IMG/VR virus record: IMGVR_UViG_3300008261_000059
Span: 1 to 64,000 of that record
From: a virus
Length of the DNA: 64,000 nt
Reading direction: 5' to 3' (one strand)
Each line of letters starts with the position of its first letter. Positions within the stretch are counted from its first letter, which is position 1. Below the pieces are notes generated by a model. It saw only the letters and a program-made list of their open reading frames with translations, was not told the origin of the DNA and did no database searches. The position numbers were made by a program, and so were the translations under genes. Shown here in pieces: positions 40,431 through 61,826 of the stretch.

Positions 40431-40490
40431 AATCTAGCACGAACTGCATAAGACTCATAAGACGAATGGACAGTGCTCAAAGTGTCCTTG
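40431..40490 (-). promoter_or_regulatory. leftward promoter with upstream inverted repeat, inside the origin-like region
   Basis: The minus strand carries TGC-TAGATT (extended -10, 40431-40436), like the -10 at 44712-44717. An inverted repeat GGACA/TGTCC (40468-40487) is centred 41-42 bases upstream, the position occupied by the palindrome in the other early promoters. It would drive 39655-39966 through the DnaA-box cluster. Confidence 0.5.
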
Positions 40491-40587
40491 GACGAATAAA
40501 TCTCATAAGTCTTCCGAGTCTCATGGACGAACAAATAAAAATCCTCCGAGTCTCATAAGACGTATGAGTTCTCAGAGTCTTATAAGG
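40447..40587. repeat. GAGTCTCATAAGACGA-like repeat family
   Basis: Five related units lie at 40452-40466, 40500-40513, 40516-40531, 40547-40563 and 40575-40587, built from GAGTC, TCATAAGAC and GACGAA blocks. They fill the space between the two divergent promoters. GAGTC blocks also recur just upstream of the palindromes of several early promoters. Confidence 0.65.
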
Positions 40588-40642
40588 TATTATAATACAC
40601 GAACCCCTTGACATCACTGTAAAGTTGTGCTGGGAATTATCG

Positions 40643-40701
40643 TGTGCCAGTTCTCAGAGTGGATTTTTGCCCTTGACTTTTCTAGGGTTTTATGATACAA
40701 T
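40643..40701 (+). promoter_or_regulatory. rightward sigma70 promoter with upstream TGTGCCAG element
   Basis: TTGACT (40673-40678) and TACAAT (40696-40701) are separated by exactly 17 bases. Six bases upstream of the -35 lies a partial copy of the early-promoter palindrome, TGTGCCAG-N8-GTGG (40643-40666), with the same spacing as at 50275-50333. No plus-strand gene follows, so the product would be an untranslated RNA running into the right-hand DnaA boxes. Confidence 0.7.
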
Positions 40702-40722
40702 GCACGCTTAGACGGCAATAAG

Positions 40723-40790
40723 ATCACATAATAACTCACATTTATCAGAGTATTAAATCACATAATAACTCAGATTAAATCAGAGAAGAA
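40723..40790. repeat. 34-bp tandem repeat, two copies
   Basis: Positions 40723-40756 and 40757-40790 are directly adjacent copies sharing an exact ATCACATAATAACTCA start and an ATCAGAG block. They lie within the region transcribed from the rightward promoter. Confidence 0.8.
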
Positions 40791-40806
40791 AGGGTATTTA
40801 TATAAG

Positions 40807-40828
40807 TTTTCCACACCCTTGTGGAAAA
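40807..40828. other. DnaA-box inverted pair, right
   Basis: TTTTCCACA (40807-40815, plus) and its complement (40820-40828) form a perfect inverted repeat with a 4-base centre, the same arrangement as 40313-40334. No T-run follows on either strand, so it is not a normal terminator. The next 90 bases are extremely AT-rich. Confidence 0.75.
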
Positions 40829-41032
40829 AGAACAACACACAAACATATGTTTTTTAATACATTTTTTTTAATTATCTTTTATTACACAATTACATAAAAA
40901 TACATTATTTAACTTTATTCATCATGTTTTCTACTGTATAACTCATACCAATCAACATATAAGACATACACATTGATAAGGTAATAGAGTTAAAAATGTT
41001 TGGTAGAATAGGTATTGATTGCTTCATAGGTA

Positions 41033-41329
41033 TTAGTAAGAAGCAGGTTCAAGAGTAATGTTTTCTTTTCTTGAGAGTTTATCTACTTGATAAGAGATTT
41101 CATCATTCATACACTTATACACAGTCTCATAGATTACATCATAACAATCTAGATTAGAAAGAACTTGTTCTGCTAGTTCATCATTATATGGATAAACAAT
41201 TTGATTTGTAACTGGATCATAATGTTCTAATTCTTTTACATCATCCTTTGTATAAAGAAGATAAAAGACTTGTTCATTCGGATCACGTTTTTCTAATGAG
41301 TGAATAACGTCTTTAACTGTTTGTTTCAT
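41033..41329 (-). CDS. hypothetical protein, paralogue of the gene at 54530-54811
   Basis: The protein has 98 residues: KQTVKDVIHSLEKRD, then a VFYLLYTKDDVKELEHYD segment, then YNDELAEQVLSNLDCYDVIY and a helical C-terminus. The arrangement of a V-x-Y-T-x-D-DV motif followed by an acidic EVL helix is shared with the 93-aa protein at 54530. Its ATG overlaps the stop of the 64-aa gene as ATGA. It is the last gene of the operon that starts at the promoter 42764-42821. Function unknown. Confidence 0.65.
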   Translation of the reverse strand: MKQTVKDVIHSLEKRDPNEQVFYLLYTKDDVKELEHYDPVTNQIVYPYNDELAEQVLSNLDCYDVIYETVYKCMNDEISYQVDKLSRKENITLEPASY

Positions 41330-42324: not shown

Positions 42325-42489
42325 TCAGTCTGCGTATTGTGCATAAACAATCGCAATCTCGGCATTTTCTTCATCATTGAAAGAAATGCCACACATATCA
42401 AGCATCCAATCATAAACCATTTCCCAATCTGCTTCCATCTCAGAAATGAAAGAAGGCAGAGATTGAATTGCTTCGGAAAAAGTCATCAT
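42325..42489 (-). CDS. hypothetical acidic protein, 54 aa
   Basis: The product begins MTFSEAIQSLPSFISEMEAD and is helical and acidic throughout (WEMVYDWMLDMCGISFNDEE). Two adjacent ATG codons at 42489 and 42486 are possible starts. Function unknown. Confidence 0.6.
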   Translation of the reverse strand: MMTFSEAIQSLPSFISEMEADWEMVYDWMLDMCGISFNDEENAEIAIVYAQYAD

Positions 42490-42763: not shown

Positions 42764-42821
42764 AATATAGCACCTTTTGGGGTCTGTGCTCTTTTAGTGT
42801 GCCAGTGCTACAGGTGGCACA
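42764..42821 (-). promoter_or_regulatory. early promoter with 24-bp palindrome
   Basis: The -10 is TATATT (42764-42769) preceded by TGC. The palindrome (42798-42821) has arms TGTGCCAG and GTGGCACA read on the plus strand, 28 bases upstream of the -10. There is no clear -35. Confidence 0.7.
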
Positions 42822-42866
42822 GGGTATCATTGGACTCAGATGAGTTGATGATACCTTAGAGGTCAG

Positions 42867-43094
42867 TCATTTCGCATTACTGAAACCTTGAGCAATTCCA
42901 GTTACAAATGCAGCACCAATACTCATCCAAAAATCAGGACTTTGCACACACTCAGAAACTGCTTGTGCCCAATCTTGAGGAGTAGAGTTCATCAGCATTT
43001 TCTTCTGTTCAGGAGTCAGATTAGAAACAGTTTCACTCCAGGCAGTTTCAATCTCTTGCTCAAACACTTGACTGAAAGAAGACAAATCACTCAT
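42867..43094 (-). CDS. hypothetical protein, 75 aa
   Basis: The product begins SDLSSFSQVFEQEIETAWSE and has a proline-bounded helical middle (LTPEQKKMLMNSTPQDWAQA) followed by a mildly hydrophobic C-terminus (FWMSIGAAFVTGIAQGF). A GGAG ribosome-binding site precedes the ATG. It is a single-gene unit with its own strong promoter at 43110-43138. Function unknown. Confidence 0.65.
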   Translation of the reverse strand: MSDLSSFSQVFEQEIETAWSETVSNLTPEQKKMLMNSTPQDWAQAVSECVQSPDFWMSIGAAFVTGIAQGFSNAK

Positions 43095-43109
43095 CTCTGA
43101 ACTCCGTTC

Positions 43110-43138
43110 ATCATAGCACCAATCCCGATGCTTGTCAA
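43110..43138 (-). promoter_or_regulatory. consensus sigma70 promoter (TTGACA-17-TATGAT)
   Basis: The minus strand has TTGACA (43133-43138) and TATGAT (43110-43115) separated by 17 bases, with TGC before the -10. Unlike its neighbours it has a full -35 and no TGTGCCAC palindrome upstream; a CAGCAT/ATGCTG hairpin lies further upstream instead. Confidence 0.85.
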
Positions 43139-43197
43139 GGGGTCTACGGTTCTTCTACCTATCAGCATCCCTGATGGGTATGCTGGGGAAAACAAGA

Positions 43198-43353
43198 CTA
43201 CATCTCATTCACCATAAAATCAATTTGATTCTGATAGTAATTGATGTCTTCAGTAATAGATTCAATCACCTGAACTTGATGTTTAGGTACATTGTCCCTT
43301 TCTTTCTGAAGTTCTTGAATCCGTTGCATCAACAGTTTAACTTGGTCTTCCAT
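43198..43353 (-). CDS. small coiled-coil protein, 51 aa
   Basis: The product begins EDQVKLLMQRIQELQKERDN and continues with QVQVIESITEDINYYQNQID, two heptad-patterned helices around a VPKH turn. It is the last gene of the operon headed by 43986-44660. The frame ends 60 bases before the next promoter. Probably an oligomerising helper protein; partner unknown. Confidence 0.6.
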   Translation of the reverse strand: MEDQVKLLMQRIQELQKERDNVPKHQVQVIESITEDINYYQNQIDFMVNEM

Positions 43354-43358
43354 TGTTA

Positions 43359-43607
43359 TTACAGTTGCACAAGGACTTTCATCATTGCAGAAACTTCTGC
43401 TTTAGTATTCCATCCAATCACATCTTCAGTCATATTTCCATTCGGTCGGAAGATTGCAACCTCATAAGTATTGTCAGTCACATTACCATACAATCCACTT
43501 CCAGGAAGTCCAGCAACAACAGAAATACTCCAATCATTTCTGAACTTATACCTTCCCTGAATTGCACCAGGAATAGAATGTGCTTCAAACTCAAGTTGCT
43601 CAAACAT
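43359..43607 (-). CDS. hypothetical protein, 82 aa
   Basis: I place the start at the ATG at 43607, five bases after the stop of the upstream gene; the longer frame would need a TTG inside that gene. The product begins FEQLEFEAHSIPGAIQGRYK and has a beta-rich middle (WSISVVAGLPGSGLYGN, then TYEVAIFRPNGNMTEDV). Function unknown. Confidence 0.65.
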   Translation of the reverse strand: MFEQLEFEAHSIPGAIQGRYKFRNDWSISVVAGLPGSGLYGNVTDNTYEVAIFRPNGNMTEDVIGWNTKAEVSAMMKVLVQL

Positions 43608-43611
43608 TGTA

Positions 43612-43944
43612 TCAAACAAATTGTTGGGACAGTGCATACTTAACAATCTCTGTGCGATTGTCTTTGTACTCTAGAAGAAGGTCAATGATGGGTTTAGTGT
43701 CCTCTGGATTTTGAAGTTCAGGGTCACACTCATCATTGGCAAGTGCAGTAAAAATACTTGCAATCTCAAAGTCTGATTCAAACAGAAGTTCCCGATGCTC
43801 GTCAATTTGTAGATAATCATCTACAGCATTACCAGTCAATTTCAATGGAACATCAGGACCAATCAAACCCAAAGTGGCAAGTCGTTCCAATGCACCAACA
43901 ACCCACATAATTTTGCACTCACCAATCGACAGTTCTGTGTTCAT
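43612..43944 (-). CDS. hypothetical acidic protein, 110 aa
   Basis: The product has a hydrophobic helical start (GECKIMWVVGALERLATLGL), then VDDYLQIDEHRELLFESDFE and a charged C-terminus (DNRTEIVKYALSQQFV). It follows the DUF2786-type gene after 40 bases and is probably co-transcribed from 44712. No family recognised. Confidence 0.65.
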   Translation of the reverse strand: MNTELSIGECKIMWVVGALERLATLGLIGPDVPLKLTGNAVDDYLQIDEHRELLFESDFEIASIFTALANDECDPELQNPEDTKPIIDLLLEYKDNRTEIVKYALSQQFV

Positions 43945-43985
43945 TGTATTAAGAATAAAGGGAAGAAAGGGAAAGGGTGTTTAAC

Positions 43986-44660
43986 TCACACCCCACAGAG
44001 TTGCTTAGTCACAGAACCAGATGCTTGACGGTTCAGAGAAACACCAGCACCAACGTTAGAACCAGCATAAGCACCAGCACCGTTAGCACCATTCATCTTC
44101 TTGGCACGTCCGAATCGCATCGTGGAGAGTTTGCTCTTCACTGCATCAGCATCATCATGCACTCGGTTCTCTGCTACTTTCATTTCACGCAGACGTTCTG
44201 CAACCTTATCAGCAAATGCTTTACGGAAGTTCAACTTGAAACTGCGAGAAACAGTTTTACCAGTAATGTCTGCCATAACCTTCTCTGCTTTATGTGCAAC
44301 ATCTGCCTCTTTCTCCATCACCTGAACCAGGTAATCATAATAGAGACGCACTTGGATTTGTTGTGCTTCACTACCAATCACCTGCAGAGATTTGGTATCT
44401 CCATTCTTCAGGTATGCCATTGCATCATAGAACTTTGCAATCGCATTAGCAATCGTAGTCAGAGCAACATTGGTTTTCTTGAAAGAGATAAAAGACTCAT
44501 CAAGAACTTGAGTTTCAGTTGCCTCACTGATGGTTACACCATACTGCTTGCACAGTTTGTCAATCATCTTAGCAGCAGCATCTGCCTCACCCTCAAAAGA
44601 AGTTCCATTCTGAAGTTTCAGGATGGATTGAATCTTTGCGATGACTTGAGTGCGGTCCAT
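43986..44660 (-). CDS. DUF2786-type protein
   Basis: The protein has 224 residues from the ATG at 44660. The longer frame to 44705 is unlikely because the promoter -10 at 44712-44717 puts the transcript start near 44705. Residues 5-45 match the DUF2786 pattern: VIAKIQSILKLQNG, an EAD-AAAKMIDKL helix and QYGVTISEA. Residues 60-180 are helical and basic, like the companion domain often found after DUF2786. The C-terminus is a low-complexity Gly/Ala/Asn stretch. The family is widespread in phages and has no established activity. Confidence 0.75.
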   Translation of the reverse strand: MDRTQVIAKIQSILKLQNGTSFEGEADAAAKMIDKLCKQYGVTISEATETQVLDESFISFKKTNVALTTIANAIAKFYDAMAYLKNGDTKSLQVIGSEAQQIQVRLYYDYLVQVMEKEADVAHKAEKVMADITGKTVSRSFKLNFRKAFADKVAERLREMKVAENRVHDDADAVKSKLSTMRFGRAKKMNGANGAGAYAGSNVGAGVSLNRQASGSVTKQLCGV

Positions 44661-44711
44661 TGTAAAGAATTGAGATTGGGACTCGGGTGGGACTGCTCCC
44701 TCCACCCTCTT

Positions 44712-44769
44712 AATCTACCAGAAAAAAGTGCCAGTGCCCGTTTAGTGTGCCACCAGTACAAGTGGCACA
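44712..44769 (-). promoter_or_regulatory. early promoter with 24-bp palindrome
   Basis: The -10 is TAGATT (44712-44717) preceded by TGG. The palindrome (44746-44769) has perfect TGTGCCAC/GTGGCACA arms, 28 bases upstream of the -10. It drives 43986-44660 and the genes behind it. Confidence 0.75.
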
Positions 44770-44783
44770 GGGTATCACTGGAC

Positions 44784-44897
44784 TCACCGAGTTGTGCTGA
44801 TAATGTCAGCAACAGTGTAAAGTGTGTTTGCAGTCAGATTCCTCACACCAGGAGAGAAAATAAATGCAACCGCAAAGATAAGAATTATAGTTCGCAT
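44784..44897 (-). CDS. small membrane or secreted protein, 37 aa
   Basis: The product begins with a hydrophobic helix (MRTIILIFAVAFIFSPG) and continues VRNLTANTLYTVADIISTTR. It could be a membrane anchor or a signal peptide with a short tail. It ends 14 bases before the next palindrome and is the last gene of its operon. Confidence 0.6.
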   Translation of the reverse strand: MRTIILIFAVAFIFSPGVRNLTANTLYTVADIISTTR

Positions 44898-44935
44898 CTT
44901 ATCTGGTGCTTTGAAAGTTAATGTCTTAGTTCGCA

Positions 44936-45124
44936 TCAGGCACAGATGGAATAGAGTTTGTTGAACTCATATTCTCCATCTTCACCCTCAACTGCCTGAT
45001 AAACAAATACAGTTTCACCAGACAGTTCAACACTCCAATCAAGAGCATCTTCTTTGGCATTGTCTACATCTTGATACCACTCGGCATCAATAAGGTCAAA
45101 AGAGACAGGGCAAGAAAGAAACAT
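44936..45124 (-). CDS. hypothetical acidic protein, 62 aa
   Basis: The start is the ATG at 45124; the longer frame begins at a TTG. The product begins FLSCPVSFDLIDAEWYQDVD and has acidic strands (VFVYQAVEGEDGEYEFNKL). Function unknown. Confidence 0.6.
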   Translation of the reverse strand: MFLSCPVSFDLIDAEWYQDVDNAKEDALDWSVELSGETVFVYQAVEGEDGEYEFNKLYSICA

Positions 45125-45218
45125 TGGAGTCAAAAACAAATGAATTAAGTTGATGGTGCAAGTGTGATATGCCTCATCAGGACATAACAGGGACTTGCAC
45201 TCTATCGTTTCTATTTAA

Positions 45219-45416
45219 TCAGACTGCAGCAAGGTAAGCAGCAATCTCATCATCATTCTCGGGACAATCAGCAATGCCCAGTTGATCACAAACTTGCTCA
45301 CGAGTGAGTTCAGTTTGGTCAGGAACAATCACATCAAGAATGTTCAGAAGTTGAGTTCCAGTAGCACCCTTGCGGAGCATACCGAGCATCACATCTTTGG
45401 AGAAAGAAACAGTCAT
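45219..45416 (-). CDS. conserved hypothetical protein, 65 aa
   Basis: The start is the ATG at 45416, about 57 bases after the predicted transcript start; the longer frame to 45509 would begin upstream of the -10. The product reads TVSFSKDVMLGMLRKGATG, then QLLNILDVIVPDQTELTREQ and an acidic end. A short helix-rich protein of this type is frequent in cyanophages as far as I recall. Function unknown. Confidence 0.65.
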   Translation of the reverse strand: MTVSFSKDVMLGMLRKGATGTQLLNILDVIVPDQTELTREQVCDQLGIADCPENDDEIAAYLAAV

Positions 45417-45479
45417 TTGAGTTGGAGTTAGTTTGACGTTTGTGGGGTGGGTTGGTTGCCCTTCCCTCACCACCCCTAT

Positions 45480-45537
45480 ACAATACCACATTTTGGGCAC
45501 TGTGCTCATTTACTGTGCCACCAGTACAAGTGGCACA
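45480..45537 (-). promoter_or_regulatory. early promoter with 24-bp palindrome
   Basis: The -10 is TATTGT (45480-45485). The palindrome (45514-45537) has perfect TGTGCCAC/GTGGCACA arms, 28 bases upstream. Confidence 0.7.
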
Positions 45538-45539
45538 TC

Positions 45540-45802
45540 GCATAATTGGACTCGGTGGGACTGGATTTTGCTAGGAAGCACCAACCCCCCTGAGTCCTAT
45601 GCGGGACACATAATGAGACCGAGAAGAGTTTTTGTTTCTTCTCTGATTCCACCTGCAACCCAGGCACCCCCCACCGCAGGATGCAGTCCCATTGCAGTCT
45701 CGTGTGAAACTGTTGATTTGGGATTTTTCTGCAATCTGGGGTCAAGGTGCCCTAGGTCATGGACCACAATCTCATCGACGGTCCATCTGAAACTGTTGAG
45801 AA
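45540..45802. other. 263-bp GC-richer intergenic stretch, unexplained
   Basis: No convincing frame lies here on either strand, and the base composition is richer in GC than the flanks. It contains an ATGGACC/GGTCCAT inverted repeat (45759-45786), two copies of GAAACTGTTGA (near 45709 and 45790) and a GAGAAG/CTTCTC hairpin near 45620. It may hold a small RNA or a remnant of a lost gene. Confidence 0.4.
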
Positions 45803-45979
45803 TCAGGCAGATTCCAGCAGTTCAGGATAATAGTCTTTAACTTCTGTAATCAATTCTTCCTCAGTATAATCAGTAAGATTTTCTACGAGAGTATCATAAA
45901 CAAAACGTTCCATTGTTTTGTAGTCCATGCTATCCAGCATTTGCTGAGCATAAGCATCAATCAGGTCTTCTTTATTCAT
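45803..45979 (-). CDS. conserved hypothetical acidic protein, 58 aa
   Basis: The product begins NKEDLIDAYAQQMLDSMDYK and ends EEELITEVKDYYPELLESA. The two-helix acidic layout with a YPELL ending recurs in T4-like cyanophages as I recall. It is the last gene of the operon started at 46913. Function unknown. Confidence 0.7.
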   Translation of the reverse strand: MNKEDLIDAYAQQMLDSMDYKTMERFVYDTLVENLTDYTEEELITEVKDYYPELLESA

Positions 45980-45986
45980 GATAAGT

Positions 45987-46193
45987 TCAGTGAGATTCAG
46001 AAATTACAAGGTAATCAAGTGAATTGACACACCAACCAGTTTGGTCGGAAATCAAATCAGAAAGTTCATCTTCATTATCAACCTCGAAGACTTCACCAAT
46101 CACAGATTTAGCAACTGCGACTTGCTCATCATAAGGAAGTTCCCCAGATGAATCTTCAAAGTCAAACTCAATGTCAGTTAGTTTCAGAAGCAT
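45987..46193 (-). CDS. hypothetical acidic protein, 68 aa
   Basis: The start is the ATG at 46193; two more residues would require a TTG. The product begins LLKLTDIEFDFEDSSGELPY and continues QVAVAKSVIGEVFEVDNEDE, then a WCVNSLDYLVIS strand. Strongly acidic and small. The start lies within a few bases of the preceding stop, so translation is coupled. Confidence 0.6.
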   Translation of the reverse strand: MLLKLTDIEFDFEDSSGELPYDEQVAVAKSVIGEVFEVDNEDELSDLISDQTGWCVNSLDYLVISESH

Positions 46194-46195
46194 TG

Positions 46196-46444
46196 TCAAA
46201 CCTCAGCAAAAGGATTAGCAAGTTGCGGAATCGTATTGAAATCTACAACTTCATAAGGAATGGTGTGATTAAGATACTCTTCAATCTCAAGATTCATCTC
46301 AATTCGATTGAGAAACTTCTTGGATTGACTTTGACCCATAAAAGTCAAAGTTTTTAGAAACCACTCTTCGGATACATTGCCCATCGGAGTTTTGATGGGG
46401 TAGAAATCCACCACCATGTTGCCATCTTTAGATTGGAGTTTCAT
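46196..46444 (-). CDS. hypothetical protein, 82 aa
   Basis: The product begins KLQSKDGNMVVDFYPIKTPM and continues with a helix (SEEWFLKTLTFMGQSQSKK) and a C-terminal strand (IPYEVVDFNTIPQLANPF). No recognised family. It follows the ArdA-like gene after about 45 bases. Confidence 0.6.
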   Translation of the reverse strand: MKLQSKDGNMVVDFYPIKTPMGNVSEEWFLKTLTFMGQSQSKKFLNRIEMNLEIEEYLNHTIPYEVVDFNTIPQLANPFAEV

Positions 46445-46488
46445 TGAGTGATTAGAATGAAGTGAATTGGAGTTAAGAAACTAACGTG

Positions 46489-46884
46489 TCAGAATTGTGT
46501 ATCGAACACAAACCCATCTTCATAAACGCAATCAAGATTATCGAAACTTGATTCCCAATCAATTTCCAGAAAACCAGGCATTTCCGTAGTATAACAGTCA
46601 TTCACAAAGTTCTCTACATATTCACCTTTAGAACTCCAAGCACCACGGTAAGAATCTTGGAAACCAGGAAGTTGGTCGAGACCAAAATACTCAACAAAAG
46701 CATCTACTGCTTCATAATTGTATTCTTCTCCAAGTTGACAATAATCTTCGTAAAACTTTACGAGATTATCTTCACCGTGCTCTCCAATGAACTCATAAAT
46801 GTCCTCATCGGAAAAGTTATTATCAACCAGTTCTTTGATAAACTCAACAGTCGATTCTTTGAGATTCACTTCGATTGCAGGCAT
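46489..46884 (-). CDS. ArdA-like antirestriction protein (acidic)
   Basis: The protein has 131 residues from the ATG at 46884; a TTG would add four. It is highly acidic. The order of motifs resembles the C-terminal half of ArdA: a helix ending in FVEYFGLDQLPGF, then a DSYRGAWSSKGEYVENFV segment parallel to the ArdA YxGxxxSxxDFA motif, then EIDWESSFDNL parallel to IDYxxxAxxL, and a final DGFVFDTQF. ArdA mimics B-form DNA and blocks type I restriction enzymes. This protein is shorter than ArdA (about 165 residues), so the function is inferred. A related protein is at 62299-62562. Confidence 0.6.
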   Translation of the reverse strand: MPAIEVNLKESTVEFIKELVDNNFSDEDIYEFIGEHGEDNLVKFYEDYCQLGEEYNYEAVDAFVEYFGLDQLPGFQDSYRGAWSSKGEYVENFVNDCYTTEMPGFLEIDWESSFDNLDCVYEDGFVFDTQF

Positions 46885-46912
46885 TGGGTTTCTCAACCTC
46901 GATTACTTTGTA

Positions 46913-46972
46913 ATCATAGCACCCCCAGCAGGGGTTTGGACGGTGTAATGTGCCACCTCTACAAGTGGCACA
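46913..46972 (-). promoter_or_regulatory. early promoter with 24-bp palindrome
   Basis: The -10 is TATGAT (46913-46918) preceded by TGC. The palindrome (46949-46972) has perfect TGTGCCAC/GTGGCACA arms, 30 bases upstream. The -35 region (GTCCAA) is poor, which suggests activator dependence. Confidence 0.75.
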
Positions 46973-46986
46973 GTCTCACTCAAGAC

Positions 46987-47151
46987 TCACTCATCATACC
47001 AGTATTCATAATCTTTCACAATGTCATCAGGATGATGATACTTTTCAGTCATACGGTCAATGAAATCTTGGACCTCACCATCATCTAAATCAGCATTGAA
47101 ATAAATCGTGAGGTTGACAGATTTATATTGAGTCACAGTCGTTTGTTCCAT
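46987..47151 (-). CDS. hypothetical protein, 54 aa
   Basis: The product begins EQTTVTQYKSVNLTIYFNAD and continues DLDDGEVQDFIDRMTEKYHH. Its ATG overlaps the stop of the upstream gene as TGATG at 47151. It is the last gene of the operon started at 48720. Function unknown. Confidence 0.65.
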   Translation of the reverse strand: MEQTTVTQYKSVNLTIYFNADLDDGEVQDFIDRMTEKYHHPDDIVKDYEYWYDE

Positions 47152-47543
47152 CAAAGTTGTTCTTGAATCAGTTTAGAAAGTTCATTGAAAGTATAACCTG
47201 AATCGTTCAGGTCCGCAAGTCCTTCGTGATAGAACCAACTATCTTCATCATCTTCTTCAACATCAATTTTTACCACAGGACAATTTTCAGTGAATCCTGC
47301 CCAATCCATTACAGATTCGGGCACAAACTCACTTTGGTCTTCAAAATACCAATAGTCTTTAGGTTGAAGATTAGTTTCTTCAATGCCCCTAAACTCCCAT
47401 TCAGTATTGTGTTCTTGTGCATAAAGGTCACACAGAACACCAAGACAACAATAACCACTCACAGTGCGGAGTTTTTCACTGCCCTGCTCGTATTTACCAG
47501 AACGCAGAGCATCAATCCACTTTTGCTTAACTTCAGGATTCAT
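47151..47543 (-). CDS. conserved phage hypothetical protein, 130 aa
   Basis: The start is ambiguous: an ATG at 47543 (NPEVKQKWIDALRSGKY) or ATGs up to 47561. The motif TVSGYCCLGVLCDLY near residue 35, following KWIDALRSG, is characteristic of a small phage family of unknown function. The C-terminal half is acidic (VVKIDVEEDDEDSW, then GYTFNELSKLIQEQL). The two adjacent cysteines followed by a third suggest a structural or redox site. Confidence 0.7.
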   Translation of the reverse strand: MNPEVKQKWIDALRSGKYEQGSEKLRTVSGYCCLGVLCDLYAQEHNTEWEFRGIEETNLQPKDYWYFEDQSEFVPESVMDWAGFTENCPVVKIDVEEDDEDSWFYHEGLADLNDSGYTFNELSKLIQEQL

Positions 47544-47715
47544 TGCCGTTGACATCATCAAACCAAGTGTCGAGTGAGTTAAAAATTTCAGTTACAATAG
47601 TATCAGTAATAGAATCAATGTGTGGTTCAGGATTGTGCTTAAACGCACGGTTGTATCCGAACCTAACACCTTCCTCTATTGCCATTTCCAATACATTACG
47701 GAATCTAGGTTTCAT
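47533..47715 (-). CDS. hypothetical protein, 60 aa
   Basis: The ATG at 47715 is preceded by GGGAGG and overlaps the upstream stop as ATGA. The product begins KPRFRNVLEMAIEEGVRFGY and ends IFNSLDTWFDDVNGNES. A helical protein of unknown function. Confidence 0.6.
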   Translation of the reverse strand: MKPRFRNVLEMAIEEGVRFGYNRAFKHNPEPHIDSITDTIVTEIFNSLDTWFDDVNGNES

Positions 47716-47915
47716 AACACCTCCCAATCACATTCCCAAGAGTCATTGACATTTACCCAAAAGAAGTATTTTTGATTCTCTGATGCGAGAAACAACATAC
47801 CATCACCCTTGTCTTGCTCTACAATACAAGTTGGGTTGTTATCCATAAAATTGCAAAGTCTATTCTTTGCTTTCTTGGATTTAGGTCTAACAATTACTTT
47901 GCGTGGATGTGACAT
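47712..47915 (-). CDS. hypothetical protein, 67 aa
   Basis: The product begins SHPRKVIVRPKSKKAKNRLC and has an aromatic second half (NQKYFFWVNVNDSWECDWEV). The basic start and strand-rich end could be a small nucleic-acid binding fold. Start and stop both overlap neighbours. Confidence 0.65.
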   Translation of the reverse strand: MSHPRKVIVRPKSKKAKNRLCNFMDNNPTCIVEQDKGDGMLFLASENQKYFFWVNVNDSWECDWEVL

Positions 47916-48121
47916 TAGTTCACAGTAAGAACAAGTTTAGCAACACGTTTCTCTCCAGCAACTTCCTGCAACTTATCATAAACTTTTTGGAACTGAACTC
48001 CCAAGTTCATATAATAAGCAGAAAGTTGATAATTCTCTGCAAGATAAAGAGCATTTTCTTTCTCTTCAAGTGCAGAGATAATGTCTAGCAACTCACCAGA
48101 AGTAAATGAAATTGAAGTCAT
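47915..48121 (-). CDS. hypothetical helical protein, 68 aa
   Basis: The ATG at 48121 overlaps the preceding stop as ATGA; the longer frame reaches into that gene. The product begins TSISFTSGELLDIISALEEK and continues as amphipathic helix to VAKLVLTVN. Function unknown. Confidence 0.65.
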   Translation of the reverse strand: MTSISFTSGELLDIISALEEKENALYLAENYQLSAYYMNLGVQFQKVYDKLQEVAGEKRVAKLVLTVN

Positions 48122-48696: not shown

Positions 48697-48719
48697 TGGA
48701 CTTCCTCAACCATGAATCC

Positions 48720-48779: not shown

Positions 48780-48785
48780 CCAGCA

Positions 48786-49604: not shown

Positions 49605-49606
49605 TT

Positions 49607-53415: not shown

Positions 53416-53441
53416 GTGGTCTCCTTTGCTTGTGTCCCTGT

Positions 53442-53730: not shown

Positions 53731-53764
53731 TTGGCAATTAAGTAATCTCTTTTAATTTATACAG

Positions 53765-53971: not shown

Positions 53972-54372
53972 TTGTAGAGATAACCTCCTGCCCAGTCGGC
54001 ACGTTGATACATTTCTTGACGAGACTTCTCATCAACAAGATTAAACCTTACACCGTTCTTTGCAGGTGTTTTCCAAGATGCAGACTTATACACATCACCA
54101 GTGTTCAAGTCAACAAATGCGTGAGCACTACGTTGAGGAGTATGCATCACAATTCTTGCATACTTTCTTCCTTTCTCATAAGTGAAAGTATAGATTCCTT
54201 CACCTTCACAGAGTTTATCGATTTGCTCTTGATGCCACTCTTTAGTTTCTGGGTCATCAAGAAACTTTCGGTGACTTTCAATCGCATAATTTTGATAATT
54301 AGTGCGAAGAACATCGCAGTATTGTTGAATCAAATCAAGGATTTGTTCTTGCACTAGAGTTGTGTTGTTCAT
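53968..54372 (-). CDS. conserved hypothetical protein, 134 aa
   Basis: The N-terminal 60 residues are helical (VQEQILDLIQQYCDVLRTNY). The C-terminal part has a conserved core: YARIVMHTPQRSAHAFVDL, then TGDVYKSASWKTPAKNGVRF and a final RADWAGGYLYK. I recall this core as common in cyanophages. Function unknown. Confidence 0.72.
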   Translation of the reverse strand: MNNTTLVQEQILDLIQQYCDVLRTNYQNYAIESHRKFLDDPETKEWHQEQIDKLCEGEGIYTFTYEKGRKYARIVMHTPQRSAHAFVDLNTGDVYKSASWKTPAKNGVRFNLVDEKSRQEMYQRADWAGGYLYK

Positions 54373-54530
54373 CCGTTGTTTAACTCGTTTGTAATGACTT
54401 CAATTCTTTTGATTTTATCAGTGAGTGATTTGATTTTAGCAACTACAAAATCATAATCATCTTGTGTCTTGCCCATCAATGCCTCATCAATTCTTTCAAA
54501 GGCAGCAGCAGTTTGAATTGTTAGTTTCAT
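54369..54530 (-). CDS. small coiled-coil protein, 53 aa
   Basis: The product begins KLTIQTAAAFERIDEALMGK and continues as a heptad helix (VVAKIKSLTDKIKRIEVITN). It is coupled by ATGA to the next gene and by TGATG to the previous one. Confidence 0.65.
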   Translation of the reverse strand: MKLTIQTAAAFERIDEALMGKTQDDYDFVVAKIKSLTDKIKRIEVITNELNNG

Positions 54531-54811
54531 CAATCAGTAAGTCCCACTTCTTCGTAAATTGACATACCTTTACGCATACGAATGTAGTCATCAATCATCT
54601 CACCGACTTGTTCGTAAATGTAGGAAGAACCACCTACATCACACAGCACATCTTCACTGAGAACTTTAGAGAAACGCACTTCATTATCGTTAGCATCAAA
54701 CTCAAAAACATCCTCTTGAGTATATACAAACGCAGCACAACCTGCGTCTTCACCTTGTTGTTCAATCAGTAGGTTGATTGAATCACGGAGTTGGGAAAGG
54801 GTGCGATACAT
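54530..54811 (-). CDS. hypothetical protein, paralogue of the gene at 41033-41329
   Basis: The product has 93 residues: YRTLSQLRDSINLLIEQQG, then AAFVYTQEDVFEFDANDNEV and SEDVLCDVGGSSYIYEQVGE. It shares length, the V-x-YT-x-(D/E)DV motif and the following acidic layout with the 98-aa protein at 41033. Function unknown. Confidence 0.65.
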   Translation of the reverse strand: MYRTLSQLRDSINLLIEQQGEDAGCAAFVYTQEDVFEFDANDNEVRFSKVLSEDVLCDVGGSSYIYEQVGEMIDDYIRMRKGMSIYEEVGLTD

Positions 54812-54813
54812 AA

Positions 54814-54987
54814 TCAGAAAGAAATGTAAGGGTGCTCTGGGTCAAGAACTTGAGTAGTTTCATTGGAGAAATGAAAACCATTCATCGGACAAAACTCATC
54901 ATTGCCAATATCATAGATTGCCACATCCATCTTCAACTGCTCCAGAGTTAGAGTCTGAAGAATCTCCAGAAGATTTTGATAAGTCAT
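54814..54987 (-). CDS. conserved hypothetical protein, 57 aa
   Basis: The product begins TYQNLLEILQTLTLEQLKMD and continues VAIYDIGNDEFCPMNGFHFS, ending PEHPYISF. A helix-strand-strand layout typical of many small cyanophage proteins. The ATG overlaps the preceding stop as TGATG. Confidence 0.7.
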   Translation of the reverse strand: MTYQNLLEILQTLTLEQLKMDVAIYDIGNDEFCPMNGFHFSNETTQVLDPEHPYISF

Positions 54988-55109
54988 CAGATTACTTTAA
55001 GTTTGCGTTTGATGTGTTGAAGTGCTTGTTTTCTTGCTTTAAGTTTGCCTTTGCAAGAACCTTTGGTGTTTTTACGTTTTCCTGAATTGTGTTGCCAATT
55101 CGGTGTCAT
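54987..55109 (-). CDS. small basic protein, 40 aa
   Basis: The predicted transcript from 55133 starts near 55126, so the ATG at 55109 is the first usable start. The product is strongly basic (NSGKRKNTKGSCKGKLKARK, then QALQHIKRKLKVI). GGGGAGGA directly precedes the ATG at short spacing. Probably binds nucleic acid. Confidence 0.55.
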   Translation of the reverse strand: MTPNWQHNSGKRKNTKGSCKGKLKARKQALQHIKRKLKVI

Positions 55110-55132
55110 TCCTCCCCTTTGCTTGTCTCCAT

Positions 55133-55191
55133 AGTATAACACCCCTCCAGGGGTTTGGAGAGGTGTTAGGGACAGTGCTACAAGTGGCACA
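55133..55191 (-). promoter_or_regulatory. early promoter with half-conserved palindrome
   Basis: The -10 is TATACT (55133-55138) preceded by TGT. The slot at 55168-55191, 29 bases upstream, has one perfect GTGGCACA arm and one GGACAG arm. Confidence 0.68.
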
Positions 55192-55195
55192 CTGA

Positions 55196-55360
55196 CTATT
55201 TTTTGAGAGTCTTTGTTTCTAATCCTTTGACAACCATTCCTTTCTTAATCATTTTCATCATTGCTTCTTGTGCCGATTCAAGTTGAAAATAACAAGCAAA
55301 CTTGGTCTCACCCATAAACTCATACTCTACAGTATAGAATTCATTATCAAGTTTAGGCAT
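55196..55360 (-). CDS. hypothetical protein, 54 aa
   Basis: The product begins PKLDNEFYTVEYEFMGETKF and continues CYFQLESAQEAMMKMIKKGM, a beta-beta-alpha layout. The ATG overlaps the last codons of the HNH gene by eight bases. It is the end of the transcript from 55860. Confidence 0.68.
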   Translation of the reverse strand: MPKLDNEFYTVEYEFMGETKFACYFQLESAQEAMMKMIKKGMVVKGLETKTLKK

Positions 55361-55829
55361 AGCAATACTCTTTCCATTCTGGAACGTTTGCTCTATCCAA
55401 TGAGAAAAGCATCTTATTGAATGGTTTTCTTGGAACAGATTGAAGAACTAAATTAGTATCTTCTAGAAGTTTATCACTCTTTCTAGTGTTGCAAGGCATA
55501 CAAGCAACAACGAGATTTTCCCAAGTATCTTGACCACCACGAGAACGTGGAATGATGTGGTCAATGGTTAGTTCCTTTGTTGAACCACAATACTGACATT
55601 TATGACCATCACGTTTATAAATCATTGTTCTTGATGGTTTATTTTGGGAGAGTTTCTCGTATGGCAACTTAATATAATTAACCAAACGGATGACTCTTTT
55701 ACCGAGTGCCTGTGCTTTATTTTTCATAAGCAGCACAATTGCTCTCTTCCAATTAGTGAAGTTAATTGGTTCATAAGATGCGTTTAGAACAAGTATTGTT
55801 TGATTTGGTTCAATTTTTAAGTAGTCCAT
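55353..55829 (-). CDS. HNH endonuclease
   Basis: The protein has 158 residues. The HNH domain occupies about residues 68-120: a zinc ribbon with C78-x2-C81 and C110-x2-C113, the DHI motif at 90-92, and a NTRK segment after the second pair. The N-terminal half (ILVLNASYEPINFTNWKRAI) is the same as in a common cyanobacterial HNH family, so it may be host-derived. It may act in DNA packaging, host DNA breakdown or homing. Its own promoter is at 55860-55889. Confidence 0.85.
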   Translation of the reverse strand: MDYLKIEPNQTILVLNASYEPINFTNWKRAIVLLMKNKAQALGKRVIRLVNYIKLPYEKLSQNKPSRTMIYKRDGHKCQYCGSTKELTIDHIIPRSRGGQDTWENLVVACMPCNTRKSDKLLEDTNLVLQSVPRKPFNKMLFSLDRANVPEWKEYCYA

Positions 55830-55859
55830 CGACCGTTTTGTGAGTTTGTAATTGGGGAG

Positions 55860-55889
55860 ATTCTACCTCCCTTTATATCTAGATGTCAA
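55860..55889 (-). promoter_or_regulatory. sigma70-type promoter of the HNH gene
   Basis: The minus strand has TTGACA (55884-55889), 18 bases, TAGAAT (55860-55865), about 31 bases before the ATG at 55829. The -10 sits in a GGGAG/CTCCC inverted repeat. Confidence 0.6.
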
Positions 55890-56649
55890 AGAATAAATCT
55901 GGATTGCATCCAGTGTTTTGACCAGGATAACCACCAGGATTACAAATCACTCGGCAACCTTCAATCATATAATCAAAAGCATTGTGAGTATGACCGTGAA
56001 CCCAGTATTTGATTTGTGGATGATTTAGAATAAGAGTATCAAGATTACTACAATAAGCACCATTTGCATTCTTTTTGTATTCCTGCGGAATAGATTGATA
56101 ACTCGGTGCGTGGTGACTGATGACAAATACGTTTTCATTCAGTGTTTGTAGTTGATTCAACAGATACTTCTTACTATCCTTGTGAAAGTTGAGAGTATCA
56201 GTTGGATTCAGTTTCCGATACTTCGGAGTGATACGAATAACTTTATAGTCATTCATACACTGTGCTGCTTCCATCATCTCTAGAGCATTTTCATCTCTAA
56301 AGTCTGTCCACAGAGTGAAACCTATAAAGTTCCAGTCTTCAATTTTAACTGTATCATTGTCAAGGATTTGGAAATTATGAGGAAGATGCTCTTTTATCTT
56401 TCTCTTTGCACCTTCATAGTTGTATCCATAGTATTCATGATTTCCAAATACATAAAGAACTTTATCATAGTTCTTACTGCAATCATTCAGGAATCTGTCA
56501 TAGACTGCGTGGATATAACCATCAGTCTTGAAATGCTTGGCATTGAGAATGTCTCCAGCAAGAACTAGAACATCACCTTCACCAACAGGATATACCTGAC
56601 AGGCAGTAAAATGCTCCAGGTGCAAATCACTTAAAACTTTGAGTTTCAT
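55879..56649 (-). CDS. calcineurin-like metallophosphoesterase
   Basis: The protein has 256 residues. The five metal-binding blocks are in order: D8-x-H10 in VLSDLHLEHF, GD in VLVLAGDIL (about 33), GNHE in VFGNHEYYG (69-72), H in FVISHHAPSY (about 185) and GHTH in YWVHGHTHNAFDY (about 225). These proteins hydrolyse phosphate esters, from nucleotides to proteins. The sequence alone does not give the substrate. It follows the tRNA gene by about 16 bases and is probably in the same transcript. Confidence 0.85.
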   Translation of the reverse strand: MKLKVLSDLHLEHFTACQVYPVGEGDVLVLAGDILNAKHFKTDGYIHAVYDRFLNDCSKNYDKVLYVFGNHEYYGYNYEGAKRKIKEHLPHNFQILDNDTVKIEDWNFIGFTLWTDFRDENALEMMEAAQCMNDYKVIRITPKYRKLNPTDTLNFHKDSKKYLLNQLQTLNENVFVISHHAPSYQSIPQEYKKNANGAYCSNLDTLILNHPQIKYWVHGHTHNAFDYMIEGCRVICNPGGYPGQNTGCNPDLFFDI

Positions 56650-56665
56650 AATGAGTAGGAATAAC

Positions 56666-56738
56666 GTTTCAGGAGGGACTCGAACCCCCGACCAACTGCT
56701 TAGAAGGCAGATGCTCTATCCAACTGAGCTACTGAAAC
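56666..56738 (-). tRNA. tRNA-Arg (anticodon UCU)
   Basis: The cloverleaf starts GTTTCAG and ends CTGAAAC, with D-stem GCTC/GAGC, anticodon loop CTTCTAA and a TTCGAGT T-loop. The anticodon is TCT, reading AGA and AGG, which are frequent in this AT-rich genome. The base pair 27-43 is a T-T mismatch. CCA is not encoded. Confidence 0.9.
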
Positions 56739-56822
56739 AAATGCCCTCCTGTTTGTGCATTATTAAGAGGCATGGAGGGGGTGGGACTTATTCAAAGTTT
56801 GGACCTTTGATGCCCGTAAGAA

Positions 56823-57074
56823 TTAACCGTTGAGGACTTGAGATTCAGAATCCTCTGGGTCAAGTTTATTTAGCACAAACTGAATCGGGTTCAATTTCTT
56901 TTGGATTTCACTTTCAATTTCACGGAAAGTGCCAACCAGTGCCTCAAGAAGTTCAGAACCAGTCAAATCTTCATAGTCGCAGTCATCAAAGACGTTTTCT
57001 TGAAAATACTCAACAAGTTGGTCTTGAAGATTTTCAACCATTTGACGAGATGCAGACTTGTTGCGACGTGCCAT
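56823..57074 (-). CDS. hypothetical acidic protein, 83 aa
   Basis: The product begins with a basic ARRNKSASRQMVENLQDQLV and continues with FDDCDYEDLTGSELLEALVG, then a helix (FREIESEIQKKLNPIQFVLN). The LTGSELLEAL segment parallels TGAELLEAL in the 74-aa neighbour, so the two may be related. Function unknown. Confidence 0.65.
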   Translation of the reverse strand: MARRNKSASRQMVENLQDQLVEYFQENVFDDCDYEDLTGSELLEALVGTFREIESEIQKKLNPIQFVLNKLDPEDSESQVLNG

Positions 57075-57113
57075 AATAAAAGTTAGTTGGTTAAGAAATT
57101 AACGAATCAAAAA

Positions 57114-57338
57114 TCAGACGTAAGTTACAGTACCATCAGCATCAGTGAGGGAAACATAACCATCATCTTCAGAATCCACAGGTTCAGAATAGTTCTCAAG
57201 CACAGTGGAATCATAATTATCCAGTGCTTCAAGAAGTTCAGCACCAGTTTCTGCTTTAGTCAGATTGGCAATCAGTTGAGCACCAGCAGGGTTGGTATCA
57301 ACGATTTCAGAAGCAAGTGCAATCAGTTTAGCAGACAT
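57114..57338 (-). CDS. hypothetical acidic protein, 74 aa
   Basis: The product begins SAKLIALASEIVDTNPAGAQ and continues LTKAETGAELLEALDNYDST, ending SLTDADGTVTYV. It shares a TG-x-ELLEAL segment with the adjacent 83-aa protein. Function unknown. Confidence 0.65.
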   Translation of the reverse strand: MSAKLIALASEIVDTNPAGAQLIANLTKAETGAELLEALDNYDSTVLENYSEPVDSEDDGYVSLTDADGTVTYV

Positions 57339-57398
57339 TTAATAAAAAGTCAAGTGAACAAAAAGTGAGTAACTTTAGGGCAAACTCATTCCCCAAAG

Positions 57399-57542
57399 TC
57401 AAGCACCTACAGGATGCTCAACCTCGATTTCATCTTCGTCACCGAGACCAAGTTGAAGATTTACATAATCTTCATAATCAACATGGAGAAACTTTTTAGC
57501 AAAGTCCTCGTAATCATCGTGAAGAATACAAGTGTCAATCAT
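57399..57542 (-). CDS. hypothetical acidic protein, 47 aa
   Basis: The frame has GGAGG seven bases before the ATG at 57542, one of the best ribosome-binding sites in the region. The product begins IDTCILHDDYEDFAKKFLHV and ends EDEIEVEHPVGA. It is the first gene after the promoter at 57571. Confidence 0.65.
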   Translation of the reverse strand: MIDTCILHDDYEDFAKKFLHVDYEDYVNLQLGLGDEDEIEVEHPVGA

Positions 57543-57570
57543 CTTGAAACCTCCTTGACTTGATGAATAC

Positions 57571-57629
57571 ATCATAGCAGATGCAGGGTCGTTTGTAAAG
57601 TGTTATGTGCCAGAAGGATTAGTGGCACA
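57571..57629 (-). promoter_or_regulatory. early promoter with 24-bp palindrome
   Basis: The -10 is TATGAT (57571-57576) preceded by TGC. The palindrome (57606-57629) has TGTGCCAG/GTGGCACA arms, 29 bases upstream. Confidence 0.72.
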
Positions 57630-59324: not shown

Positions 59325-59383
59325 ATTATAGGGCAAAACCGACCCCGTGGGAGGGGTGCTGTGCCAGTTCCATAAGTGTCAGT
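59325..59383 (-). promoter_or_regulatory. early promoter with degenerate palindrome
   Basis: The -10 is a perfect TATAAT (59325-59330). The slot at 59360-59383, 29 bases upstream, has one TGTGCCAG arm and a GTGTCAG arm. It overlaps the end of the 55-aa gene. Confidence 0.68.
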
Positions 59384-60198: not shown

Positions 60199-60356
60199 CG
60201 CACTTGCTCTTTTCGTTGTGTATAAGTCAAATCAAACAAAGTAGTCAGAATATCAACACAATCATTATATAATTGTATGTCTTGAATGTTATTATGTTGA
60301 TATTTGCGAACAGCAGCAACAACTATTTCCAATTGTTCTTTACTGAGATTGTTCAT
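60195..60356 (-). CDS. hypothetical protein, 53 aa, tandem paralogue of 59992-60198
   Basis: The product begins NNLSKEQLEIVVAAVRKYQH and continues LYNDCVDILTTLFDLTYTQR.The likeness to the next gene in position and sequence points to a tandem duplication. ATGA overlap at 60195-60198. Confidence 0.65.
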   Translation of the reverse strand: MNNLSKEQLEIVVAAVRKYQHNNIQDIQLYNDCVDILTTLFDLTYTQRKEQVR

Positions 60357-60495
60357 TTTTCAGTTTATCAAGATGGTCGGTAATTGCTTTAGTAAAATCT
60401 TCTTCAGTCCAATCATTTAAGATACTTTCAGTTGGGTCATTCTCATCCCAACTGATTGTAAATGTTCCATCATCTTCTTCTTTACATTCAATCAT
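60340..60495 (-). CDS. conserved hypothetical acidic protein, 51 aa
   Basis: The product begins IECKEEDDGTFTISWDENDP and continues TESILNDWTEEDFTKAITDH. The SWDENDP motif recurs in small cyanophage proteins as I recall. It overlaps the next start by 17 bases. Confidence 0.7.
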   Translation of the reverse strand: MIECKEEDDGTFTISWDENDPTESILNDWTEEDFTKAITDHLDKLKNEQSQ

Positions 60496-60706
60496 TTTCT
60501 GTCTCCCAAGGTGCTTTACGATTCATAATCTCTCTAAATCTTTCTACTGCTTTTGGGTCTGGTGGTTTATTGATTGCTTCTACAAGAGCATCATATGCTT
60601 CTTTGCTTACATACATCTTTTGTGGTTTCATACCAAGATGCTTGAGACACTTTCGTTCGTATCTCCACTCTTTATACCTATACCACAATGACCATAGAAA
60701 ATTCAT
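60488..60706 (-). CDS. protein with TacA/DUF1778-like C-terminal tail, 72 aa
   Basis: The first 30 residues are basic and aromatic (NFLWSLWYRYKEWRYERKC). Residues 32-70 resemble the C-terminal toxin-binding region of TacA/DUF1778 antitoxins: a strand (MYVSKEAYDALVEAI), a NKPPDPKAVERFREIM helix, and the ending NRKAPWE. The ribbon-helix-helix DNA-binding part of an antitoxin is absent. A phage decoy antitoxin against a host acetyltransferase toxin is possible but speculative. Confidence 0.6.
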   Translation of the reverse strand: MNFLWSLWYRYKEWRYERKCLKHLGMKPQKMYVSKEAYDALVEAINKPPDPKAVERFREIMNRKAPWETEND

Positions 60707-60918
60707 CTTTTAAGTACCTCAGAATAATATGGGTCTCTTCCTGATAGATTATATGGGTCAAAACCTGGTTGAGACATTATATATTCATCTGTCATTTGCA
60801 TAAATCCACTTGATAGTTCTTCAAAAAACATAAGTCTATCAATATTATCATCCAAATTCAAACGAGCGTCAATACAATTCTTCCAAGACCAATAGATATC
60901 ATCAATCCACTGTTTCAT
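60703..60918 (-). CDS. hypothetical protein, 71 aa
   Basis: I choose the ATG at 60918; another ATG is at 60933. The product begins KQWIDDIYWSWKNCIDARLN and continues RLMFFEELSSGFMQMTDEYI, ending GRDPYYSEVLKR. Function unknown. Confidence 0.62.
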   Translation of the reverse strand: MKQWIDDIYWSWKNCIDARLNLDDNIDRLMFFEELSSGFMQMTDEYIMSQPGFDPYNLSGRDPYYSEVLKR

Positions 60919-61087
60919 CTGAGTAATTAACATAGAGATTGTCACCACCAATGTTTAGATGAAAAATTTGCCCGTTGTTGAGATAGATTCCCAACCATAC
61001 CGCACGACCTTCTTCCATTGTTTCATAATGGACCATCTTCACATCTTCCAGAACAATCTCATCTGGATTCTTTACAAAACGACTCAT
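60902..61087 (-). CDS. hypothetical protein, 61 aa
   Basis: The product begins SRFVKNPDEIVLEDVKMVHY and continues EEGRAVWLGIYLNNGQIFHL, then a NIGGDNLYVNYSDETVD end. A small beta-rich fold. ATGA overlap with the preceding gene at 61084-61087. Confidence 0.65.
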   Translation of the reverse strand: MSRFVKNPDEIVLEDVKMVHYETMEEGRAVWLGIYLNNGQIFHLNIGGDNLYVNYSDETVD

Positions 61088-61380
61088 CGCATTACCTCTG
61101 TTGCACTTGCATCACCGTAGTTCAGATAACCAAAACGTTCCATAACATAACCCTCAAAGTCAGTAGCATCAGATTCGGCAACATAATGCCCACCATTGTT
61201 ATCACTCTCAGTATAGTTTCCAAGATAGTCATTGAAAACCATAAAGATTGCTGCTGCCTTTGCCCTTTCAGCATCGGTAGTAATCACGAGAGGATAAGTA
61301 ATAATCTTTGTGATACACTCAAACAGTTCTTCACGAGTGTAAGAAAATGCTTTTGCTTCTGGATTAAGGTCGTAAGTCAT
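61084..61380 (-). CDS. hypothetical protein, 98 aa
   Basis: The ATG at 61380 overlaps the preceding stop as TGATG; the longer frame runs through that gene. The product begins TYDLNPEAKAFSYTREELFE and has a helical middle (TTDAERAKAAAIFMVFNDYL) and a C-terminus with GHYVAESDATDFEGYVMERF. Function unknown. Confidence 0.68.
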   Translation of the reverse strand: MTYDLNPEAKAFSYTREELFECITKIITYPLVITTDAERAKAAAIFMVFNDYLGNYTESDNNGGHYVAESDATDFEGYVMERFGYLNYGDASATEVMR

Positions 61381-61505
61381 CAGGATACAAGAACGAGGAT
61401 TAGAACAATAACAAAACCCCAAGGAATATTCAAACTAATGACTTCTCCCTTGTCGTTTCTGTCGGCATATGGAACAAAAAACTTGATAATATCAAGTGTG
61501 TTCAT
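61380..61505 (-). CDS. small membrane protein, 41 aa
   Basis: The product begins NTLDIIKFFVPYADRNDKGE and ends in a C-terminal hydrophobic helix (PWGFVIVLILVLVS). It would be a tail-anchored protein with its N-terminus in the cytoplasm. TGATG overlaps on both sides. Confidence 0.62.
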   Translation of the reverse strand: MNTLDIIKFFVPYADRNDKGEVISLNIPWGFVIVLILVLVS

Positions 61506-61744
61506 CAACCAACTCCATATGCTTCAAGAATCCCACGAGCAAGAGCAATTGCCAAATCCTTCTGTGCGATACTCATATCTTCACGAGCACCACCAGAACA
61601 AGAAGTAATGAAAATACCAGCATTATCTACCGTGAGTTCTACTCGTTCAGTTTCATTCTCATCAGCAGGATTAGTCCAAGTAAAGACATCAATCTTACTG
61701 CGGAGCACATCAGTTCCAGGCAGTAAAGTGTAGAAGTTAGACAT
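61505..61744 (-). CDS. hypothetical protein, 79 aa
   Basis: The product begins SNFYTLLPGTDVLRSKIDVF and continues TERVELTVDNAGIFITSCSG, then a helix (SIAQKDLAIALARGILEAYG). First gene after the promoter at 61768. Function unknown. Confidence 0.65.
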   Translation of the reverse strand: MSNFYTLLPGTDVLRSKIDVFTWTNPADENETERVELTVDNAGIFITSCSGGAREDMSIAQKDLAIALARGILEAYGVG

Positions 61745-61767
61745 TAGAGTTCTGTGTGTATGAGTGT

Positions 61768-61826
61768 ATTATAAGGCATCAAGGTCGGTTCTGGTGTGTC
61801 CTTGTGACGGTTGTTCAGGTGTCACA
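61768..61826 (-). promoter_or_regulatory. early promoter with a TGTGAC/GTCACA palindrome; -10 contains a stop codon
   Basis: The -10 is TATAAT (61768-61773) and its TAA is the stop codon of the gene at 61769. The slot 29 bases upstream (61803-61826) holds an inverted repeat with TGTGAC and GTCACA arms, extending to CTTGTGAC/GTCACAAG, closer to the classical CRP half-sites than the others. Confidence 0.68.

Follow-up and report, generated by a model that had tools for sequence, protein, structure and literature searches.

A 24-base-pair palindrome, its edge 28–30 bases upstream of the -10 box, recurs before eleven predicted leftward promoters in bases 1–64,000 of the 77,719-base virus record IMGVR_UViG_3300008261_000059. 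This 64,000-base stretch, here called the window, is a fragment of a T4-like cyanophage from freshwater that is known from metagenome alone. We consider it reasonably likely that the palindrome, whose centre would lie near -53, is an operator through which weak early promoters of the sigma-A type are activated, and to judge from its distribution among related sequences the element is probably a shared early-gene switch of these phages. Both marine and freshwater T4-like cyanophages have it, in hundreds of natural variants, and host genomes contain it only rarely; it bears on the question of how cyanomyoviruses take over transcription.

Eleven predicted palindrome promoters in the window

Palindromes of the form TGTGCCAC-N8-GTGGCACA, with up to three mismatches allowed, occur eight times in the window, all within 42798–57629, as against a mean of 0.06 and a largest count of 1 in 100 shuffled windows. 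For an independent search, a matrix was trained without the window sequence on 75 strand readings of 66 palindromes from ten isolated cyanophages. The scan with this matrix recovered eleven leftward sites (Table 1, where each palindrome begins at the site start), with scores of 28.5–38.1, and the top score in 30 simulated windows, 26.4, lies below every one of them; the simulated windows held on average 0.13 matches scoring above 14, with a maximum of 2. The shuffles, simulations and spacing counts all fall far below what is observed, and a chance origin of the sites was rejected.

The eleven leftward promoters are those claimed in a preliminary description of this DNA, made from the sequence alone, and most of its other statements about them stand. 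The distance from palindrome to -10 is 28 bases at three sites, 29 at six and 30 at two. Training of the matrix was restricted to readings whose -10 lay at 28–30, which conditions the spacing counts of the matrix scan itself. The -10 boxes were called good or extended, and all eleven hexamers have A at position 2 and T at position 6, while six carry the extended TGN. Most promoters were said to lack a -35, and in nine of the eleven none better than 3/6 is found, the exceptions being TTGACT (50310) and TTTACA (57606). With the -10 at -12 to -7, a 29-base spacer would place the operator at about -65 to -42 on a promoter that the host sigma-A RNA polymerase would recognize, in agreement with the centre near -53 given earlier.

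Rightward readings of the same symmetric palindromes also score high, six of them at 28.2–32.7. The leftward reading at 44746 (TAGATT at 28, 31.7) is even outscored by the rightward one (GATAAT at 29, 32.7), and the leftward choice was made there because of the leftward gene and of relatives that share the -10 and the leader. The one rightward promoter of the preliminary description could not be confirmed: the sole separate candidate, at 40643, has a single half-site and a score near noise.

Distribution among phages and host genomes

A scan of IMG/VR with the pattern TGTGCCAC-N4-ACAAGTGGCACA gave at least 117 environmental stretches, chosen by a strong palindrome. Together with the whole record that contains the window, these stretches hold 343 unique matrix palindromes among the matches listed, a scope that applies also to the spacing counts that follow for this set. 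A scorable -10 lies within 10–59 bases on either side of 312 of the 343, and the best -10 is at 28–30 in 259 of these 312, against 18.7 expected if distances were uniform. In a count made without the matrix on 328 readings, -10 boxes peak at 42, 50 and 35 for distances 28, 29 and 30; a second peak of 25 readings at distance 3 is due, in our reading, to an ATGATAC-like repeat on the upstream side. The 66 isolate palindromes, taken without any spacing condition, likewise have plus-strand -10s at 29 (39), 30 (11) and 28 (6), with at most 11 at any other distance. Since related phages enter both the environmental and the isolate set, the samples are not independent.

The isolates were Syn9, S-SSM7, P-TIM40, S-CRM01, S-PM2, P-SSM4, P-SSM2, S-SKS1, S-T4 and S-RIM2; a motif search had supplied S-T4, S-SKS1, S-RIM2 and S-SSM7, and the remaining six were selected by name. 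All ten carry the element, with 1–14 palindromes each in the stretches examined, and their consensus is TGTGCCAGTT-N4-AACTGGCACA, the four central positions carrying almost no information. Whole-genome scans show the element mostly where small genes cluster (10 of 10 palindromes at 41.9–51.1 kb in S-SSM7, 6 of 7 at 50.3–55.0 kb in P-TIM40), and all seven P-TIM40 palindromes have a -10 at 28 or 29.

Variants of the site were also seen. Weaker sites at 47204 in Syn9 and at 46979, 48009 and 49513 in P-SSM4 keep the distal half TGTGNCA and have TGTCCAC in place of GGCACA, always about 29–30 bases before a -10; these may perhaps represent a second type of half-site. At many freshwater sites, and in S-T4 and S-SKS1, the spacer between palindrome and -10 has a block like TAAATGAGCACAG close to where a -35 would stand; the S-SSM7 sites are without it.

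Other phages gave background at most. T4 has one weak match, as does the control pattern. A single match with two mismatches occurs in the T4-like Pelagibacter phage HTVC008M and another in the T7-like P-SSP7; the pattern scan found no matches in Syn5, S-TIM5 or PSS2. Among cellular genomes, TGTGCCACTTGT-N4-GTGGCACA has three matches across the genomes of 84,980 prokaryote species, and TGTGNCANT-N6-ANTGNCACA occurs at five sites, spread over 4 of 300 genomes from the family of a Cyanobium metagenome-assembled genome. Two of these five represent a single locus shared by two genomes; by inspection none of the five has a -10 at 28–30 beside it. The weight matrix and host scan proposed in the preliminary description find the eleven window sites on the one hand and few sites in 300 host-family genomes on the other.

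A probable protein-bound operator and its alternatives

The preliminary description took the constant spacing as a sign of a DNA-bound regulator and named RNA hairpins as the alternative. The fixed spacing across many differing sites, the recurrence in all ten isolates and the independence of the two half-sites favour the regulator. When the 66 isolate sites were examined for kept pairing between the arms, the observed counts were close to those expected if the arms were independent (37 against 32.7 at position 5, 24 against 26.0 at position 8, 53 against 54.0 at position 9 and 30 against 31.3 at position 10), and the smallest p value for dependence over twelve positions was 0.14. As the half-sites vary independently, it is not the pairing of bases that has been kept, which suits a protein that reads each half.

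That the palindrome is instead an RNA hairpin, acting as terminator or processing signal, or belongs to a mobile promoter–stem-loop cassette, appears very improbable. Terminator-like hairpins are indeed enriched in the spacers, and where one is present the palindrome would sit in the upstream transcript; hairpins scoring at least 10 are found in 7 of the 75 isolate readings, with 0.3 expected, and, among the matches listed, in 19 of 224 environmental spacers including those of the window (2.1 expected). However, pairing within the palindrome is no better kept than each half alone would give, none of the eleven window spacers reaches a score of 10, and the fixed distance to the -10 would go unexplained. 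Moreover, the palindrome is followed by TAAA rather than a T run in most of 131 environmental sites among the matches listed (131 of 189 were used for flank letters, the rest being dropped for short flanks or as duplicates). The hairpin-bearing units, a minority, are predicted to be arranged as operator, terminator and promoter.

We propose that a dimeric DNA-binding protein would occupy each palindrome and, most likely as an activator, recruit or steady the polymerase from just upstream. Activators bound upstream can contact the polymerase from such a position, and help is suggested because the -10 boxes are good or extended but the -35 boxes mostly poor. The promoters would drive a cluster of small takeover genes that includes an anti-restriction-like protein, a DNA methylase and many unknowns. 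Protein binding, activation and the early timing of the genes are all things that we infer from sequence. Binding by a repressor of the phage, with the early promoters turned off later or tuned, would accord with palindromic operators being typical of repressors and with phage early genes usually being switched off. It seems rather improbable here, as the palindrome, 28–30 bases away, overlaps neither the -10 nor the -35 region, and most window promoters, nine of eleven being without a -35, look weak unaided.

A host transcription factor, exploited at once on infection and with weaker versions of the operator as its own sites, would be on hand from the first minute. The element also tracks cyanobacterial hosts among T4-like phages, HTVC008M, which is classified in the same family and infects Pelagibacter, being without it. 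A host factor is nevertheless unlikely to be the binder: the few sites in the Cyanobium-related genomes do not have the phage promoter layout, and P-SSP7, Syn5, S-TIM5 and PSS2, whose hosts are Prochlorococcus or Synechococcus, do not use the element. A phage-encoded binder, carried in the virion or made first, appears the better candidate, given how seldom the site occurs in host genomes and that other cyanophages infecting these hosts do without it. According to PMC2984593, cyanomyoviruses are without alt, modA, modB, motA and asi, so another factor is to be expected. The fuller proposal, that the palindrome is the operator of such a phage-encoded activator, delivered with the virion or made first and acting from -53 on the host sigma-A polymerase, is one we put forward tentatively, as a possibility. 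If it is true, the activator would stand in for the missing Alt, Mod and MotA functions and could represent a new DNA-binding family.

Several observations weigh against an operator for an early activator. Such an activator must be present at infection and would have to come with the virion or from the host, and the candidates examined yielded no binding protein. The reversed control pattern has 0 matches in the 300 host-family genomes against the five sites, a nonzero host count. Good palindromes number only two in Syn9 (TATTCT at 29), its remaining sites being weaker, S-RIM2 has a single palindrome, and under a strict -10 rule of 5/6 matches few of the palindromes of S-CRM01, S-PM2 and Syn9 keep a -10.

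Three candidate binders were considered and not adopted. Of the 10 isolate stretches, 7 contain the Syn9 gp90 family, closely preceded by a palindrome in five of them; the family has no match in the S-CRM01, P-SSM2 and P-SSM4 stretches, in the window or in L122. A 54-residue open reading frame at 50348–50512, ribbon-helix-helix-like by eye, has 34 members including itself, none of them in the isolate stretches, and no Pfam or PHROG match. A DUF7717 protein (53968–54372, - strand), of a family that we take to be wider than this phage group, is present in all ten motif-bearing isolates and in none of six other phages, a distribution that any early core gene of the group would show. A palindrome promoter stands directly before the DUF7717 gene in P-TIM40 and P-SSM4.

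The leaders show features of their own. Transcripts from the predicted starts 42757, 44705 and 45473 would open with GGGTGG...CCCACC, which could form a 5' stem-loop, and a leader of this type is seen in 70 of 363 strand readings of the environmental set and window (among the matches listed). A general 5' leader hairpin is unsupported, as 54% of 190 leaders among the matches listed fold better than their shuffles. At other environmental loci, such as L002 (2412 and 5386) and L076 (2068), short inverted repeats in the leader span from the end of the -10 to the start (TGAAC-GGA-GTTCA, GATTAC-GGA-GTAATC and GATTGC-GTA-GCAATC); their letters change and pairing is seemingly kept, an impression without statistics.

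Known systems and neighbouring features

A novel early-gene regulatory element, conserved among T4-like cyanophages, was reportedly found in Syn9 and P-TIM40 by Doron et al. in 2016 (ISME J). As palindrome promoters of the present type were found in both Syn9 and P-TIM40, members of the same phage group, we think that the palindrome is that same element and that prior art is likely; the present phage is a freshwater one known only from metagenome. No description of this motif was found in the literature searched, where the letter matches listed were unrelated by title. What may be added here is the freshwater lineage, the comparison with hosts and with phages of other groups, the independence of the half-sites and the terminators embedded in some spacers. 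The operator could serve as bait for its binder, and sequence alone would allow its regulon to be predicted, uncultured phages included.

The late promoters activated by P2 Ogr and P4 Delta have a similar layout, with a dyad near -55, TGT-N12-ACA, no -35 and the host sigma-70 polymerase. They do not fit, however, as the dyad here is TGT-N18-ACA and the Ogr_Delta protein (PF04606) was found in 0 of 11 records searched, a set outside which the window's own record lies. The CRP box has a similar outer dyad, TGTG...CACA, in 16 base pairs as compared with the 24 here. The NtcA consensus is GTA-N8-TAC in PMC3037559. Neither box fits, the CRP box by its length and NtcA because the isolate consensus is without GTA-N8-TAC and its four central positions carry almost no information, which bears out the earlier statement that the sites do not match the NtcA box. 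Promoter–stem-loop (PeSL) units occur in T4-like phages, according to PMC4503421. A PeSL combines an early promoter with a stem-loop. Spacers with a strong stem-loop are enriched here but form a minority, with none in the window; the difference is that the constant part here is the palindrome 28–30 bases upstream of the -10, and most spacers are without a strong stem-loop.

The left part of the window holds T4-like baseplate and tail genes, with baseplate wedge families at 34917–36803 and 18070–22794, and from about 41 to 64 kb small genes follow in a leftward series (Table 1). The near DNA matches of the window in the phage collection, the tRNA excepted, are T4-like Synechococcus cyanophages, and the host, judged from these relatives, would be a cyanobacterium. 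The same block is annotated in Syn9, S-SSM7 and P-SSM4 in the order helicase, small genes, genes 25 and 6, and its products in Syn9 and S-SSM7 include ones named baseplate wedge.

Table 1. Predicted palindrome promoters and other features of the window (window positions; bases given are the distance from palindrome to -10)
Feature	Coordinates	Strand or direction	Details
Promoter unit	42764–42821	-	Palindrome 42798–42821, 28 bases, -10 TATATT 42764–42769
Promoter unit	44712–44769	-	Palindrome 44746–44769, 28 bases, -10 TAGATT 44712–44717; leader common to relatives
Promoter unit	45480–45537	-	Palindrome 45514–45537, 28 bases, -10 TATTGT 45480–45485
Promoter unit	46913–46972	-	Palindrome 46949–46972, 30 bases, -10 TATGAT 46913–46918; precedes anti-restriction-like gene 46489–46884
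Promoter unit	48720–48779	-	Palindrome 48756–48779, 30 bases, -10 TATTAT 48720–48725
Promoter unit	50275–50333	-	Palindrome 50310–50333, 29 bases, -10 TACAGT 50275–50280, -35 TTGACT; precedes 49607–50254 and methylase gene 48786–49604
Promoter unit	53442–53500	-	Palindrome 53477–53500, 29 bases, -10 TATAAT 53442–53447
Promoter unit	55133–55191	-	Imperfect palindrome 55168–55191, 29 bases, -10 TATACT 55133–55138; found by matrix only, outside the eight
Promoter unit	57571–57629	-	Palindrome 57606–57629, 29 bases, -10 TATGAT 57571–57576, -35 TTTACA
Promoter unit	59325–59383	-	Imperfect palindrome 59360–59383, 29 bases, -10 TATAAT 59325–59330; found by matrix only, outside the eight
Promoter unit	61768–61826	-	Imperfect palindrome 61803–61826, 29 bases, -10 TATAAT 61768–61773; found by matrix only, outside the eight
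Doubtful unit	52123–52181	-	Half-site 52158–52181, -10 TATACT; score 13.6, near noise
Doubtful unit	40643–40701	+	Half-site 40643–40666, -10 TACAAT 29 bases on; score 14.3, near noise
Anti-restriction-like protein	46489–46884	leftward	PHROG match; Pfam ArdA below cut-off
D12 adenine methylase	48786–49604	leftward	
Helicase	50862–52097	leftward series	
HNH endonuclease	55353–55829	leftward series	
Metallophosphoesterase	55879–56649	leftward series	
tRNA-Arg	56664–56739	leftward series	
abiF RNA adjoining tRNA-Arg	56743–56779	-	Rfam, 48.3 bits against a gathering score of 37

A weak match to the S15 ribosomal leader RNA lies at 42331–42451 on the - strand (30.3 bits, under the gathering score of 39.5; E 0.0017). 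At 60.3–74.3 kb of the record, that is, the end of the window together with L122, many small open reading frames match the S-PM2 stretch at 1–25 kb and few match other isolates, which agrees with the suggestion in PMC4503421 that exchange has taken place between S-PM2 and phages of fresh water.

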